Shown one piece after another: positions 3-4,176 of a stretch of 13,165 nucleotides of DNA (position 1 is its first letter; every line of letters starts with the position of its first letter). The notes beneath the pieces are model-generated. The model saw only the letters and a program-made list of their open reading frames with translations. It was not told the origin of the DNA and did no database searches. Where the stretch lies: positions 1-13,165 of the forward strand of contig VXZL01000669.1 of the NCBI GenBank assembly GCA_009845505.1, read 5' to 3'. The position numbers were made by a program, and so were the translations under genes. The DNA comes from Candidatus Poribacteria bacterium. GTDB lineage: Bacteria; Poribacteria; WGA-4E; WGA-3G.

Positions 3-248
3 TGGGTTCTTCACCAATTGATTGAAATTTATGTATTCATCGTTATAGGAAATGCCATTCTTTCTTGGTTTGTTTACGGCACGCAAAATTCAACTATCAG
101 GCAAATCTATTGGTGGACAAGTCGTATCGTAGATCCAGCTTTGACCCCGATTCGTAGAGCACTTGGACCCAGGACTCGAAATCTCGGTATCGATATTTCG
201 CCTTTTATCCTAATTTTTCTGCTAATGATCTTGAAAGGGCTGTTCTAA
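3..248 (+). CDS. yggT: YggT family membrane protein (5' end outside window)
   Basis: This is a small integral membrane protein of the YggT/YlmG family, which is linked to membrane and division-site functions but has no defined enzymatic activity. The visible part has an N-terminal hydrophobic helix containing the family signature ILSWF, a middle segment DPALTPIRRALGP that matches the conserved DPxLxPiRr motif, then IDISPFILIF leading into a second hydrophobic helix. A TTG at base 18 could serve as a start. However, the frame is open to the window edge and the upstream codons (WVLHQ) resemble a normal YggT N-terminus, so the gene is probably cut by the window. In many bacteria this gene lies a few genes upstream of ileS-lspA at the end of the division cluster. 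The next two genes here fit that order, but no ylmH or divIVA lies between. Confidence 0.85.
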   Translation, partial: WVLHQLIEIYVFIVIGNAILSWFVYGTQNSTIRQIYWWTSRIVDPALTPIRRALGPRTRNLGIDISPFILIFLLMILKGLF

Positions 249-381: not shown

Positions 382-3051
382 ATGAAACAGGGAAATTCCG
401 CCGCAAAAAGCGCGACACGTAAACAGGGCAAAGCAAGCAAGGGACCAGAAAACGATTTGCTAACCGACCAAACACGAGAGAAAGTGATTTTGGATACTTG
501 GGCAAATGCCAATATTCATGCCGTAGTGAACAAAAAGACGAACACGGCAAGCGTCAAGACGCGGCAGACGCACCACAGTTCTGAAACCCAAGCTTATGTC
601 CTACGCGAGATGCCTACACCGGTCCATCTGCTAACCCTTGAAACGCTTTGTAGGAAGATTTGTCAGGACATCTTTCTCAAGGCTGAGTTAATGCAGGGGC
701 ATCAGGTCACATACGTCCCGGCATGGGAGACCTATCCGCTCTGGATTGAAGAACAGGTCATCGCAGCAGCAAAATCGAAATCTCCGCTCAAACTCTCTGT
801 CCTCCGCAAAAGGTGTCGTGCCCGGCACAAACAGGAATTAGAAATCCAAAAACAGAAATTCTATCAACTTGGTATCTTTGCTGATTGGGATACTTCACAG
901 AAGACGCTTGAATCGCGGCAAGAGGCAAGACTCATTGCCCTTATTAGCCGCTTACGAGATTCTGACTACCTCCACGATCTACCCCAACTGAGTCCGTGGT
1001 GTCCCAAATGCACAATCCCGCTGAACGAAGCAAATCTCATACAGATGCCAACAAAAGCATTGAACGGCTATGTAAAGTTTCCATTTAATGTGGGGTTGGA
1101 GGCATTTGGTACCAACGTCTTTTTTGCAGTGCAACTGCCATATCTCCGAGAAATAGCATGGACTACGGAACTCGGGATTAACGAGAACACTACCTATTGG
1201 CTTACGCAATTCGCAGATGAATTTCTGCTCTTTGCTGAACCCCAGTTGAAAAATTTTTGTCGGCGTCTTGCCAAAGGACAGCAGCGCCCCAAGCGTGTTA
1301 AAGAAATCAAAGCCGTTGAGCTCACACAGTACACCGTAGCACATCCACTCTTTCCATCAAAAGCGTTAAATATCACACTCGTTCCGCAACCTCTCCCTGA
1401 AAAACTGTCTAACTCGCAACCAACACCGTTTTTAAAATCTGGTGTTCTGCCGCTAAATCCTGCCCACGATCAACTCAGCTACGACCTCGCTCAAGAACTA
1501 AATATAGCCTCTACACCCATTTTCGATGAAACAGGAAGACTCACAGAAGAAGCCGGGCAACTGTGTGGCTTGTATTTATTTGATGCAGAAAAATTCATTA
1601 TCCCTCAATTGGAAAGATTTGGATACCTGCTGAAGACCTATAACGAAGAACGGCGTGAACTTCACTGCCCACGCTGCGAAGAATTAGCAGTCTTTCGCCC
1701 ATGTTCAAAATGGGTATTTTCCGTTTCCAACAACCACGCCACTTTCCAACTCCTCAACGCGCAAGACCATTGGGACAATTATGCGAATACTGAGCACAAA
1801 AACATTGCTGATGTCCGAAAGGCTGTCTCAAATTTCAGAGACTTACAGGTTTCCGCACAACGTCAATGGGGAATGCCGTTACCAATCCTTCTCTGTGACC
1901 AGTGTGACGAACCGCTCACGGATAAAAACACACTGAGTGCCATTCGGAATTCCATTCAGCGCGGCTTCGAATCTTGGTTCCGATTAAGTGTTGAGGAACT
2001 CCTACCTACCGATACACACTGCTCGAACTGTGACTCAAGCGAATTCCGCAAAGAAGCTACACTGATTGACGGACATTTCGCAAATTTACTCCAAACTATT
2101 GATAACTCTGATTTCAAGAAAGCACTCGGTGGTTCCACAAGCGTCATGTTTGTTCCACAACCAAGCACGAGTGATGCTGAGTGGATAAAATGGTTAGCCG
2201 AGATCAGCGTTATTTCCGCTGCACTTACCAGAAGTCGTCCAATTAAAGAAATTCAACCTTTTAAGCAACTAAAACTTAACATAATGCCTAAAATTGGCAG
2301 CGAAATTGAAATCGACGACACTTTCCTAAACAAATATCCAGCGGATGTTTCGCGCCTCGTTGCTATAACACCTAATCTCAGTACACAGCAAATTACCCAG
2401 CAACGACTTGAGAAAGTTGCCGAAGACCTTCTAATGGAGTATCAACAACTACAAACCTTGTTTGAACACATCAGCGTCCTACTCCACGGTTCGCTCCCAA
2501 GTGAAGGACACAACACCAAAAATCGAAATAGCAACAAAGATGATGCCAGTCACGCTCACCTTCCGAGCGCGCCCACAGAACTGAATATAAATAGTACTGA
2601 CAGCTCAACCGCTGATAAAAATTTAACTATTGATGCGCTTGCGGTAAACGTTACCGCACAACTTCTGCAAGACATAAGACAGATTTACGAAAATGGGCAG
2701 TTTCATGAAACCTGGAAAATGTTAACCGATTTTTGTGCACAAGATCTCAGTTTCTATGTGCACGCTATCGAATCCCGCGATGCCACACCACCTCACGCAG
2801 CATACGAGGCACTCACACAAATCAGCATCGCGTTGCTTCAACATTTCGCACCTCTGACACCCTTTTTGGCAGAACATTTCTATCGATTGATTTCTGTAGA
2901 TAACAAAACCGATAACCATAGCATTTTTCAAAAGAACTGGCATTCAGTGTCGCCTGCAATTCGGCAAAGTCTGCGGGCTTCCCAGACGAAGAAAAATGAT
3001 GCAAAAGCGGAATGGGAGGCACTTAGAAATGCCCACAATACAGAAGGGTAA
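382..3051 (+). CDS. Degenerate isoleucyl-tRNA synthetase-like protein (predicted pseudoenzyme)
   Basis: The 889-residue protein follows the class Ia IleRS plan from end to end. Clear IleRS echoes are MQGHQVTYVPAWETYPLWIE (104-123), WCPKC (206-210), VKFPF (231-235), FDETGRLTEEA (381-391), HCPRC near 428-432 followed by VFRPCSKWVFSV, QRQWGMPLP (493-501), EFRKEATLID (554-563), LNKYPADVSRL (649-659), and an anticodon-binding-like helical region (750-835, with TDFCAQDLSFY and APLTPFLAEHFY). The key motifs are lost in my by-eye alignment. HIGH becomes TLET (85-88), KMSK becomes IMPK (634-637), and the GWDxHGLPIE block loses D, H and G. The editing residues equivalent to E. coli His333 and Asp342 become Pro357 and Ser366, and DVWFDSG becomes DGHFANL. 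A polar Ser/Asn/Asp-rich linker spans about 702-748, and the C-terminal zinc module of many IleRS is absent. No good Shine-Dalgarno precedes the ATG. It sits in the ileS slot between yggT and lspA and overlaps lspA by 23 bp. The ORF is intact, so I infer a retained non-catalytic protein, perhaps tRNA-binding. Homology is near certain; the function is unknown. Confidence 0.88.
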   Translation: MKQGNSAAKSATRKQGKASKGPENDLLTDQTREKVILDTWANANIHAVVNKKTNTASVKTRQTHHSSETQAYVLREMPTPVHLLTLETLCRKICQDIFLKAELMQGHQVTYVPAWETYPLWIEEQVIAAAKSKSPLKLSVLRKRCRARHKQELEIQKQKFYQLGIFADWDTSQKTLESRQEARLIALISRLRDSDYLHDLPQLSPWCPKCTIPLNEANLIQMPTKALNGYVKFPFNVGLEAFGTNVFFAVQLPYLREIAWTTELGINENTTYWLTQFADEFLLFAEPQLKNFCRRLAKGQQRPKRVKEIKAVELTQYTVAHPLFPSKALNITLVPQPLPEKLSNSQPTPFLKSGVLPLNPAHDQLSYDLAQELNIASTPIFDETGRLTEEAGQLCGLYLFDAEKFIIPQLERFGYLLKTYNEERRELHCPRCEELAVFRPCSKWVFSVSNNHATFQLLNAQDHWDNYANTEHKNIADVRKAVSNFRDLQVSAQRQWGMPLPILLCDQCDEPLTDKNTLSAIRNSIQRGFESWFRLSVEELLPTDTHCSNCDSSEFRKEATLIDGHFANLLQTIDNSDFKKALGGSTSVMFVPQPSTSDAEWIKWLAEISVISAALTRSRPIKEIQPFKQLKLNIMPKIGSEIEIDDTFLNKYPADVSRLVAITPNLSTQQITQQRLEKVAEDLLMEYQQLQTLFEHISVLLHGSLPSEGHNTKNRNSNKDDASHAHLPSAPTELNINSTDSSTADKNLTIDALAVNVTAQLLQDIRQIYENGQFHETWKMLTDFCAQDLSFYVHAIESRDATPPHAAYEALTQISIALLQHFAPLTPFLAEHFYRLISVDNKTDNHSIFQKNWHSVSPAIRQSLRASQTKKNDAKAEWEALRNAHNTEG

Positions 3052-3541
3052 AAAATTTAGCTGGCAGACCGCTATCCCGTTAATCAGCGTAGCAATACCG
3101 ATGCTAATACTTGATTGGACCAGCAAATGGCTCGTGCAAATGCATATCACTCAGATTACAGAGGTAATTCCGATTATCCCTGGCTTCTTTAATTTGCGGC
3201 ACGATAGAAATACTGGCGCGGCTTTCGGTGTGCTTGCTGGACACAGAATCTTACTTATTTTGATTACCCTTGCCGCCTTAGTCTTTATCTTCGCGTACTA
3301 TCTACGATTTAAGGAGAGCCGTTGGATGCAAATCTCGCTCGGTTTTCTGCTTGGAGGCGCCATTGGAAACTTCATTGATCGTATCCGTTTGGGTGAAGTC
3401 GTTGACTTCCTTCAATTCGGCATAGCAAGCAAGGGACTGTTTTGGCCAACCTTCAACATTGCCGATGTCTCAGTTTGCATCGGAGCGGGTATGCTAATCG
3501 TTTATCTCTTCCGCAATCGTAATGAGACCTATCAAAGTTGA
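3029..3541 (+). CDS. lspA: Lipoprotein signal peptidase (signal peptidase II)
   Basis: LspA is the inner-membrane aspartyl protease that removes the signal peptide from prolipoproteins after lipidation of the +1 cysteine. The 170-residue protein has four hydrophobic segments. It carries all family motifs: LDWTSKW (28-34), NTGAAFG (61-67), GNFIDR (113-118) and FNIADVSV (142-149). The two catalytic aspartates are D117 and D146. I chose the ATG at 3029 because GGGAGG (3014-3019) lies nine bases upstream. An in-frame ATG at 2996 would add 11 residues but has no ribosome-binding site. The gene begins inside the 3' end of the synthetase-like gene (23 bp overlap), so the two are probably translationally coupled. 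A substrate candidate in this window is the lipoprotein at 9839. Confidence 0.95.
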   Translation: MPTIQKGKKFSWQTAIPLISVAIPMLILDWTSKWLVQMHITQITEVIPIIPGFFNLRHDRNTGAAFGVLAGHRILLILITLAALVFIFAYYLRFKESRWMQISLGFLLGGAIGNFIDRIRLGEVVDFLQFGIASKGLFWPTFNIADVSVCIGAGMLIVYLFRNRNETYQS

Positions 3542-3623
3542 CTTTCTGGAGTCGCAGAAACAGGCTCGTGAGCTTATTAAGAAATCAAATACCACTTTTA
3601 TCAGGGACCTAACGTATGTATAA
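3522..3623 (+). CDS. Possible 33-residue small protein bridging lspA and the next gene
   Basis: An ATG inside the last codons of lspA opens a different frame that runs through the whole lspA/3616 gap and stops just inside the next gene. The predicted peptide is charged and soluble-looking, with a Lys/Arg/Glu/Gln-rich middle (SQKQARELIKKS). Overlap at both ends is typical of coupled operon genes, and it fills a gap that otherwise has no content. Against it, there is no Shine-Dalgarno and I do not recognise the sequence. It could equally be a chance ORF. Confidence 0.22.
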   Translation: MRPIKVDFLESQKQARELIKKSNTTFIRDLTYV

Positions 3624-4176
3624 ATTCACCATTCAGTTACTCGCGCTCAGCTTAATCGCCCTTTTTTTGGCATCCGAGGCAACGGCACAATTTCAACCCC
3701 CTCCAGATCAGAAGACGCAAGAAGAGCATCCAGAGGACTATAGTGAAAGCGCGTTGCGCCGCTTTGAGATTATCACTTTAAGTTCACTGCCGTTCGTCGC
3801 TGTTCACAGTTACGCCATCGTTCGTGGTATAAAAATGTACACTGAAAATCAATTCGCACCTGAGTTATCCCCTGCGGACTATCGGATCATCGGCGCCGGT
3901 GCCGTCTCTTTATCTCTGTTTATCGGATTATGGGATTGGTTACATACCCGCAAAGTAGACCGTTCTGCCCCGCGTATCCCTGAGCGAACACCGCCTGAAC
4001 CCCCCGAAGAGGAAGAACCTACTGAAGGCCCAATCGCTCGCCTATCAAACACCACGCCTTATGCAGCAAAATACAGAAATAGGTCTCTACACGAATCAAT
4101 GAACAAGGGACTGAACAGATGGGCAAGCGAACCGGCTGCCGGTCTCGCTATACCGCTCCTTCAAATTCGTTTTTGA
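3616..4176 (+). CDS. Hypothetical exported or membrane protein
   Basis: I do not recognise a family. Residues 1-25 form a signal peptide (hydrophobic core LLALSLIALFLA, likely cleavage after ATA). The mature part has two moderately hydrophobic segments: roughly 52-72 (ITLSSLPFVAVHSYAIV) and 91-108 (IIGAGAVSLSLFIGLWDW). A proline/glutamate-rich stretch follows (RTPPEPPEEEEPTEGP, about 124-139). The protein ends in LAIPLLQIRF, and a terminal phenylalanine after alternating hydrophobics recalls the C-terminal signal of outer-membrane beta-barrels. The chain looks too short for a standard barrel, so the two segments may be inner-membrane helices instead. The ATG has AGGGA (3603-3607) eight bases upstream. 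It lies between lspA and fmt in the same direction, so it is probably in the same operon. Confidence 0.75.
   Translation: MYKFTIQLLALSLIALFLASEATAQFQPPPDQKTQEEHPEDYSESALRRFEIITLSSLPFVAVHSYAIVRGIKMYTENQFAPELSPADYRIIGAGAVSLSLFIGLWDWLHTRKVDRSAPRIPERTPPEPPEEEEPTEGPIARLSNTTPYAAKYRNRSLHESMNKGLNRWASEPAAGLAIPLLQIRF

Follow-up and report, generated by a model that had tools for sequence, protein, structure and literature searches.

Why would a bacterium retain a full-length gene for a protein that resembles isoleucyl-tRNA synthetase (IleRS) throughout and yet lacks the motifs of its chemistry? This question is raised by a 13,165-nucleotide stretch of DNA (hereafter the window; GenBank assembly GCA_009845505.1, contig VXZL01000669.1) from a Candidatus Poribacteria bacterium. 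An open reading frame (ORF) of 889 codons extends without interruption from position 382 to 3051 on the forward strand, which also carries its motifs and domains and the flanking genes yggT and lspA described below. A first-pass annotation had read this ORF as an IleRS-derived pseudoenzyme, and our analysis supports that assignment and traces it to the type 1 bacterial enzyme, IleRS1. We refer to the product as pseudo-IleRS1. Because its motifs are lost, because it groups with IleRS1, because an intact type 2 enzyme (IleRS2) is encoded in the same genome, and because the gene lies beside lspA and has ratios of nonsynonymous to synonymous substitution rates (dN/dS) of 0.10-0.29, we conclude that IleRS2 took the place of an IleRS1, which was then retained as a pseudo-synthetase. 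We consider it probable, though far from certain, that the gene is a dead, displaced housekeeping IleRS1 whose product now acts as a non-catalytic, partner-binding scaffold or regulator.

An IleRS fold without catalytic or editing motifs

The window protein is predicted to retain the IleRS fold, as evident by the 748-756 residues that correspond to the bacterial IleRS1 structures 8c9e (P. megaterium) and 1qu3 (S. aureus). Solved IleRS chains are matched by sequence comparison, and the Pfam domains tRNA-synt_1 and Anticodon_1 both score above their cut-offs. Against the NCBIfam equivalog model for ileS (TIGR00392) the same protein scores 198 bits, far below the cut-off of 621.4 bits that marks a functional ileS product.

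The substitutions listed by the first-pass annotation are reproduced by alignment with E. coli IleRS. HIGH is replaced by TLET (T85-T88; positions 634..645), KMSKS by IMPKI (I634-I638; 2281..2295), and DVWFDSG by DGHFANL (D563-L569; 2068..2088). In the E. coli enzyme, residues T242/T243, H333 and D342 have roles in editing by the CP1 domain. Their equivalents in the window protein are P253/Y254, P357 (1450..1452) and S366 (1477..1479), a combination that does not match a functional ileS editing site. H333 is retained in 11 and D342 in 15 of 139 alignment rows, as counted from the six commonest letters per column with the window protein entered twice. It seems likely from these replacements that both charging and editing have been lost.

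Intact motifs located elsewhere in the protein would overturn this reading, and none were found. An initial alignment of 49 relatives contained neither HIGH nor KMSKS, one protein (L061) having no residues at the HIGH position. A text search for HxGH, KMSKS or WFDSG-type motifs anywhere in the protein yielded no match among 169 distinct members of clade A, the clade of the window protein, or among 33 members of clade B, the sister clade formed by protein P0123 and its degenerate relatives. In 111 IleRS1 controls, chosen by rank in search listings and not all inspected individually, the same search recovered HxGH in 85, KMSKS in 97 and a WFDSG-type motif in 108. A looser HIGH pattern matched 109 of these 111 controls and no protein of either clade, and a GxHH pattern flagged four clade A proteins, all of them at an ATHHL upstream of the HIGH column. 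KMSKS-like remnants do occur in clade B, as KLSKS in the fragment P0228 and KIRKS in P0123.

The clade A set was collected purely by similarity, its public-database part being the best 120 of 350 matches. The clade B set includes P0203-P0229, a block of matches adjoining P0123, and four proteins (P0252, P0295, P0305 and P0315) assigned after their motif region had been seen, with P0252 and P0315 being the two placed by a tree. An alignment of 32 clade B proteins, from which the C-terminal fragment L109 was left out, has residues at the HIGH position in 29 and at the KMSKS position in 30.

Descent from IleRS1

A profile search begun from class-level relatives returned, after their own family, P0123 and then IleRS1, IleRS2, ValRS and LeuRS. 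The search from P0123 yielded approximately 30 further degenerate proteins, nearly all with a C-terminal zinc finger and two of them annotated as Candidatus Poribacteria, before intact IleRS1 proteins appeared. In a 51-row tree, clades A and B are sisters that together form one clade (support 100/100), this clade joins IleRS1 (99/99), and IleRS2 stands separate (100/100). An earlier 51-row tree in which P0123 alone represented clade B agrees, with the grouping with IleRS1 supported at 100/99. The two trees disagree on the exact position of A+B, either next to IleRS1 as a whole or nested within it. Both rule out an IleRS2 or ValRS ancestry, and on these comparisons the window protein is an IleRS1 by descent.

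We also considered whether A and B might be drawn together artificially by shared motif loss. After removal of every column whose conservation in IleRS1 reaches 80%, A and B still grouped together against IleRS1 (SH-aLRT 100) in a tree built by a quick method from 596 columns and 37 rows, with IleRS2 and ValRS rows left out. Twelve residues are common to the two clades (75% or more in each) but rare in IleRS1 (25% or less), and four of these fall in the CP1 GLExxG stretch at window protein residues 238-243. Public records name P0204 and P0315, both clade B proteins whose motifs are gone, isoleucine--tRNA ligase or class I tRNA ligase.

A second IleRS in the same genome

Contig C416 of the window genome encodes an IleRS of 1047 amino acids (counted from the first Met) that carries GVHH and KMSKS and is of the IleRS2 type. 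IleRS2 enzymes are reported to bear an altered signature motif and to tolerate the swapped form GXHH (PMC10485003). The C416 protein is presumed to be the working isoleucine-charging enzyme of the window genome. The ileS cut-off is passed in 74 of 84 genomes of the phylum. Five genomes of families f2, f4 and f7 (L111-L114, L128) encode a different IleRS2, with NNPMGVHHAWG, GFDCQGLW and, in place of KMSKS, MHKS, in frames that are open for 1123-1173 amino acids where complete. One working IleRS therefore seems to have replaced another within the phylum, and since family f4 has this alternative IleRS2 alongside pseudo-IleRS, the pseudo-synthetase seems to have outlived that change there.

Two observations on IleRS stand apart. 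The IleRS2 of genome G061 (L072), which is the only above-cut-off IleRS listed for that genome, reads TIAH at the HIGH position, neither HXGH nor GXHH; its KMSKS is intact, and DSG is replaced by DAG. Genomes G046 (95% complete) and G048 (91% complete) have no IleRS above the cut-off, probably owing to assembly gaps.

Purifying selection on pseudo-IleRS1

An ORF of this length without a stop had been taken by the first-pass annotation as an argument for selection, and substitution rates agree. Across 11 pairs, dN/dS of pseudo-IleRS1 ranges from 0.102 to 0.285. The seven pairs closest to the window give 0.10-0.16, near the values for lspA, fmt and rpe, and the remaining four give 0.19-0.29, approximately 2 to 4 times that of lspA. 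Among the 11 pairs, dN/dS of a PASTA gene is mostly, and that of an M20 gene always, below that of pseudo-IleRS1. Bootstrapping of five pairs (dN/dS 0.130-0.277) places the upper 95% bounds at 0.177-0.372. In 28 genome pairs, dN of pseudo-IleRS1 is 1.7 to 4.1 times that of IleRS2 from the same genome, and the highest dN/dS for pseudo-IleRS1 is approximately 0.32. These rates indicate that pseudo-IleRS1 is kept by purifying selection, with a constraint that is real yet weaker than that on a working synthetase. Pseudogene decay is ruled out by the dN/dS values together with the long intact frames.

The constraint is distributed unevenly, as evident by dN/dS values pooled by part over 12 close pairs. 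On the N-terminal side, residues 1-33 give 0.34, residues 34-205 give 0.13 and residues 206-440 give 0.14. The most constrained stretch is the core at residues 441-660 (1702..2361), with 0.060 for residues 441-560 and 0.082 for residues 561-660. On the C-terminal side, the linker (residues 661-745) gives 0.40 and the anticodon-binding-type domain (residues 746-889; 2617..3048) gives 0.29. Conservation among relatives is complete or almost complete for eight cysteines, which form four CxxC pairs. One lies at residues 207/210 (1000..1011) and is putatively of the zinc type by its position, and the others lie at 429/432 (1666..1677), 505/508 (1894..1905) and 547/550 (2020..2031). Residues W95, P336, H338 and W569 (E. 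coli numbering) are retained in 137-139 of the 139 rows.

Two grades of erosion in the tRNA-binding regions

The proposal that pseudo-IleRS1 keeps both the scaffold and the tRNA-binding region survives in its first half, as the fold is retained. The second half lacks support for the window protein, whose anticodon-binding-type domain is relaxed and has lost most of its canonical Lys/Arg residues. We compared 11 clade A, 28 clade B and 18 IleRS1 rows, using domain borders that we drew ourselves and the few Lys/Arg columns that are invariant in IleRS1. In the anticodon domain, the 18 IleRS1-invariant columns are retained at 28% in A and 82% in B, and the three invariant Lys/Arg columns at 24% and 88%. 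The four invariant Lys/Arg columns of the stem-contact region are retained at 30% in A and 79% in B. For the C-tail, the mean fraction retained of nine IleRS1-invariant columns is 0.00 in A and 0.94 in B, and the two invariant Lys/Arg columns are kept at 0% and 93%.

The C-terminal zinc finger PF06827 is absent from the precomputed domains of the best 120 of 350 matches, the window protein included, and the sole text match among the clade A rows, at residue 470 of an 819-residue protein, falls outside the tail. The anticodon region is also more acidic: its median net charge is -8 across 19 diverse relatives, of which 18 belong to clade A and one to clade B, versus -2.5 in 18 IleRS1. These comparisons suggest that tRNA binding was ancestral, and they leave it doubtful for the window protein.

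Genomic locus and distribution

The left neighbor of the gene is yggT (3..248), and lspA follows (3029..3541). From its likely start at 3029, picked by eye after a GGGAGG (the listed ORF start is 2996), lspA would share its first 23 bases with the end of the pseudo-IleRS frame. In several relatives from other families, the pseudo-IleRS ORF stops well ahead of lspA. The two genes flank pseudo-IleRS in families f1, f3, f4, f6 and f7, and lspA lies downstream of it in f5, f8 and G061, which belongs to another class. Ahead of lspA is likewise the place of ileS in E. coli, and the Bacillus order is ylmG(yggT)-ylmH-divIVA-ileS-lspA.

Relatives of pseudo-IleRS1 are present in 77 of 84 phylum genomes by a hand count from genome searches. 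All 38 genomes of the genus (the window genome included) have the gene, as do 19 of 20 in the rest of the family. The other families score 3 of 3 (f3), 8 of 9 (f4), 0 of 2 (f2), 4 of 6 (f5), 2 of 2 (f6, one of them split into two pieces at contig edges), 1 of 1 (f7), 1 of 1 (f8, a contig-edge fragment), 0 of 1 (f9) and 1 of 1 (f10, a fragment of the clade B type). In G036, G038 and G039 the yggT-lspA gap is approximately 200 to 580 bases, occupied in G038 by an unrelated 122-amino-acid ORF, and no pseudo-IleRS is found in the gap or elsewhere in the genome. Since the gene is missing from these three well-covered genomes, pseudo-IleRS1 is dispensable. In G067, where the gene was not found either, the contig stops beside lspA, and in G050, G059 and G060 neither the gene nor lspA was detected. 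A search of viral contigs with P0123 gave no relative.

After lspA, a 186-amino-acid ORF (3616-4176) has no Pfam match. A homolog follows lspA in most families, including where pseudo-IleRS is lost, with no match in G052 (f7) or G061 (f10). A scan of the window for RNA families and tRNA genes found none.

Possible functions of pseudo-IleRS1

From this evidence we infer an order of events, a binding role and a kind of partner. The gene would be the former type 1 housekeeping IleRS gene of the phylum, still beside lspA. In the phylum stem, IleRS2 would have taken over tRNA-Ile charging, after which both the ATP/amino-acid site and the editing site of IleRS1 would have disappeared while the whole fold stayed under selection. 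The first non-catalytic state, preserved in clade B, was probably a tRNA binder, because that clade has kept the majority of the conserved Lys/Arg in the tRNA-binding domains as well as the C-terminal zinc finger. In clade A these features are mostly gone, leaving the Rossmann core and its putative zinc ribbons as the most conserved part, through which the protein may bind a protein or ligand partner. Our tentative version of this scheme is a phylum-wide conversion in two steps, from a tRNA-binding pseudo-synthetase (B) to, in the class of the window, a tRNA-free scaffold with a remodeled Rossmann/zinc core that engages a new partner, serving for instance as a sensor or as an allosteric subunit in the control of isoleucine or of translation.

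Because tRNA binding appears to have outlived the chemistry in clade B, and because in clade A the tRNA regions are relaxed and the core is constrained, we prefer a scaffold or regulator. The main rival is a tRNA-Ile-binding regulator, in line with the first-pass annotation, which would act as a chaperone, a competitor or a sensor of uncharged tRNA. The persistence of the fold and of the anticodon-binding Pfam domain, together with the Lys/Arg retention in clade B, is consistent with this rival, but the low retention of the same anticodon-domain and C-tail columns in clade A and its acidic, relaxed anticodon region make it doubtful for the window protein. A repurposed catalyst, running a new reaction in the remodeled Rossmann pocket or the CP1 site in the manner of SbzA, would fit the findings that residues 561-660, the former DVWFDSG region, are strongly conserved within the genus, that W95, W569, P336 and H338 persist, and that polar residues such as K100, R179, H321, Y367, D382, R522, D655 and E831 are conserved above the IleRS1 level. 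This role is unlikely, however, as SbzA is reported to retain slightly modified HIGH and KMSKS motifs (PMC6331615), and both are gone in pseudo-IleRS1.

Less likely still is an operon-leader remnant, in which the ORF is translationally coupled to lspA and the protein itself is idle. The 23-base overlap, the loss of the gene in three genomes and the elevated dN relative to IleRS2 fit such a role, but it is contradicted by purifying selection at the amino-acid level, by residues and cysteines that are invariant across the class, and by the several relatives in other families whose ORFs end well before lspA. Finally, the tolerance of a swapped motif by IleRS2 might suggest that pseudo-IleRS1 is a still-active IleRS with unusual or displaced motifs. 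This is highly improbable, since the catalytic segments are all missing together and the window genome encodes an IleRS2 with intact motifs. Moreover, product formation was reportedly absent in GXHH versions of the E. coli and P. megaterium IleRS1, and HXGH is carried by every one of the 158 IleRS1 in the same study (PMC10485003).

Relation to known systems and significance

The preferred scaffold or regulator can be set against several known proteins. Bacterial IleRS1 shares with pseudo-IleRS1 the fold over 748-756 residues, the position in the tree and, in E. coli, the place ahead of lspA. Pseudo-IleRS1 differs in lacking the catalytic and editing residues, and clade A differs further in lacking the C-terminal zinc tail and in its eroded tRNA-domain Lys/Arg. 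HisZ, which regulates HisG, differs from pseudo-IleRS1 in its class II fold and its known partner. It is HisRS-like and serves amino-acid biosynthesis rather than charging, and synthetase relatives that do not charge tRNA have already been described (PMC9437257). LeuRS-I of Sulfolobaceae is, according to the same review, a further class Ia synthetase that is unable to aminoacylate and whose editing domain is disrupted, but it forms leucyl-adenylate and binds tRNA-Leu (PMC9437257), a comparison made from its description. It is also an extra LeuRS, whereas pseudo-IleRS1 appears to be the displaced gene at the old ileS place. SbzA of Streptomyces is an IleRS homolog with a non-charging job, which transfers Ile from Ile-tRNA onto another acceptor; it differs in its slightly changed HIGH and KMSKS, its weak charging activity and its location in a biosynthetic cluster (PMC6331615). 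Among the literature matches listed, in which subscription journals are little covered, there was no apparent earlier account of an isoleucyl-tRNA synthetase pseudoenzyme or of a poribacterial case.

The annotation of motif-less proteins such as P0204 as isoleucine--tRNA ligase misleads both gene annotation and IleRS phylogenies. The gene that appears to be the original ileS, still of full length and next to lspA, is dead in most of this phylum, while an enzyme of the second type is available. Its sister clades, at different stages of erosion, offer a natural series on the uses to which a synthetase scaffold may be put after its chemistry is lost.
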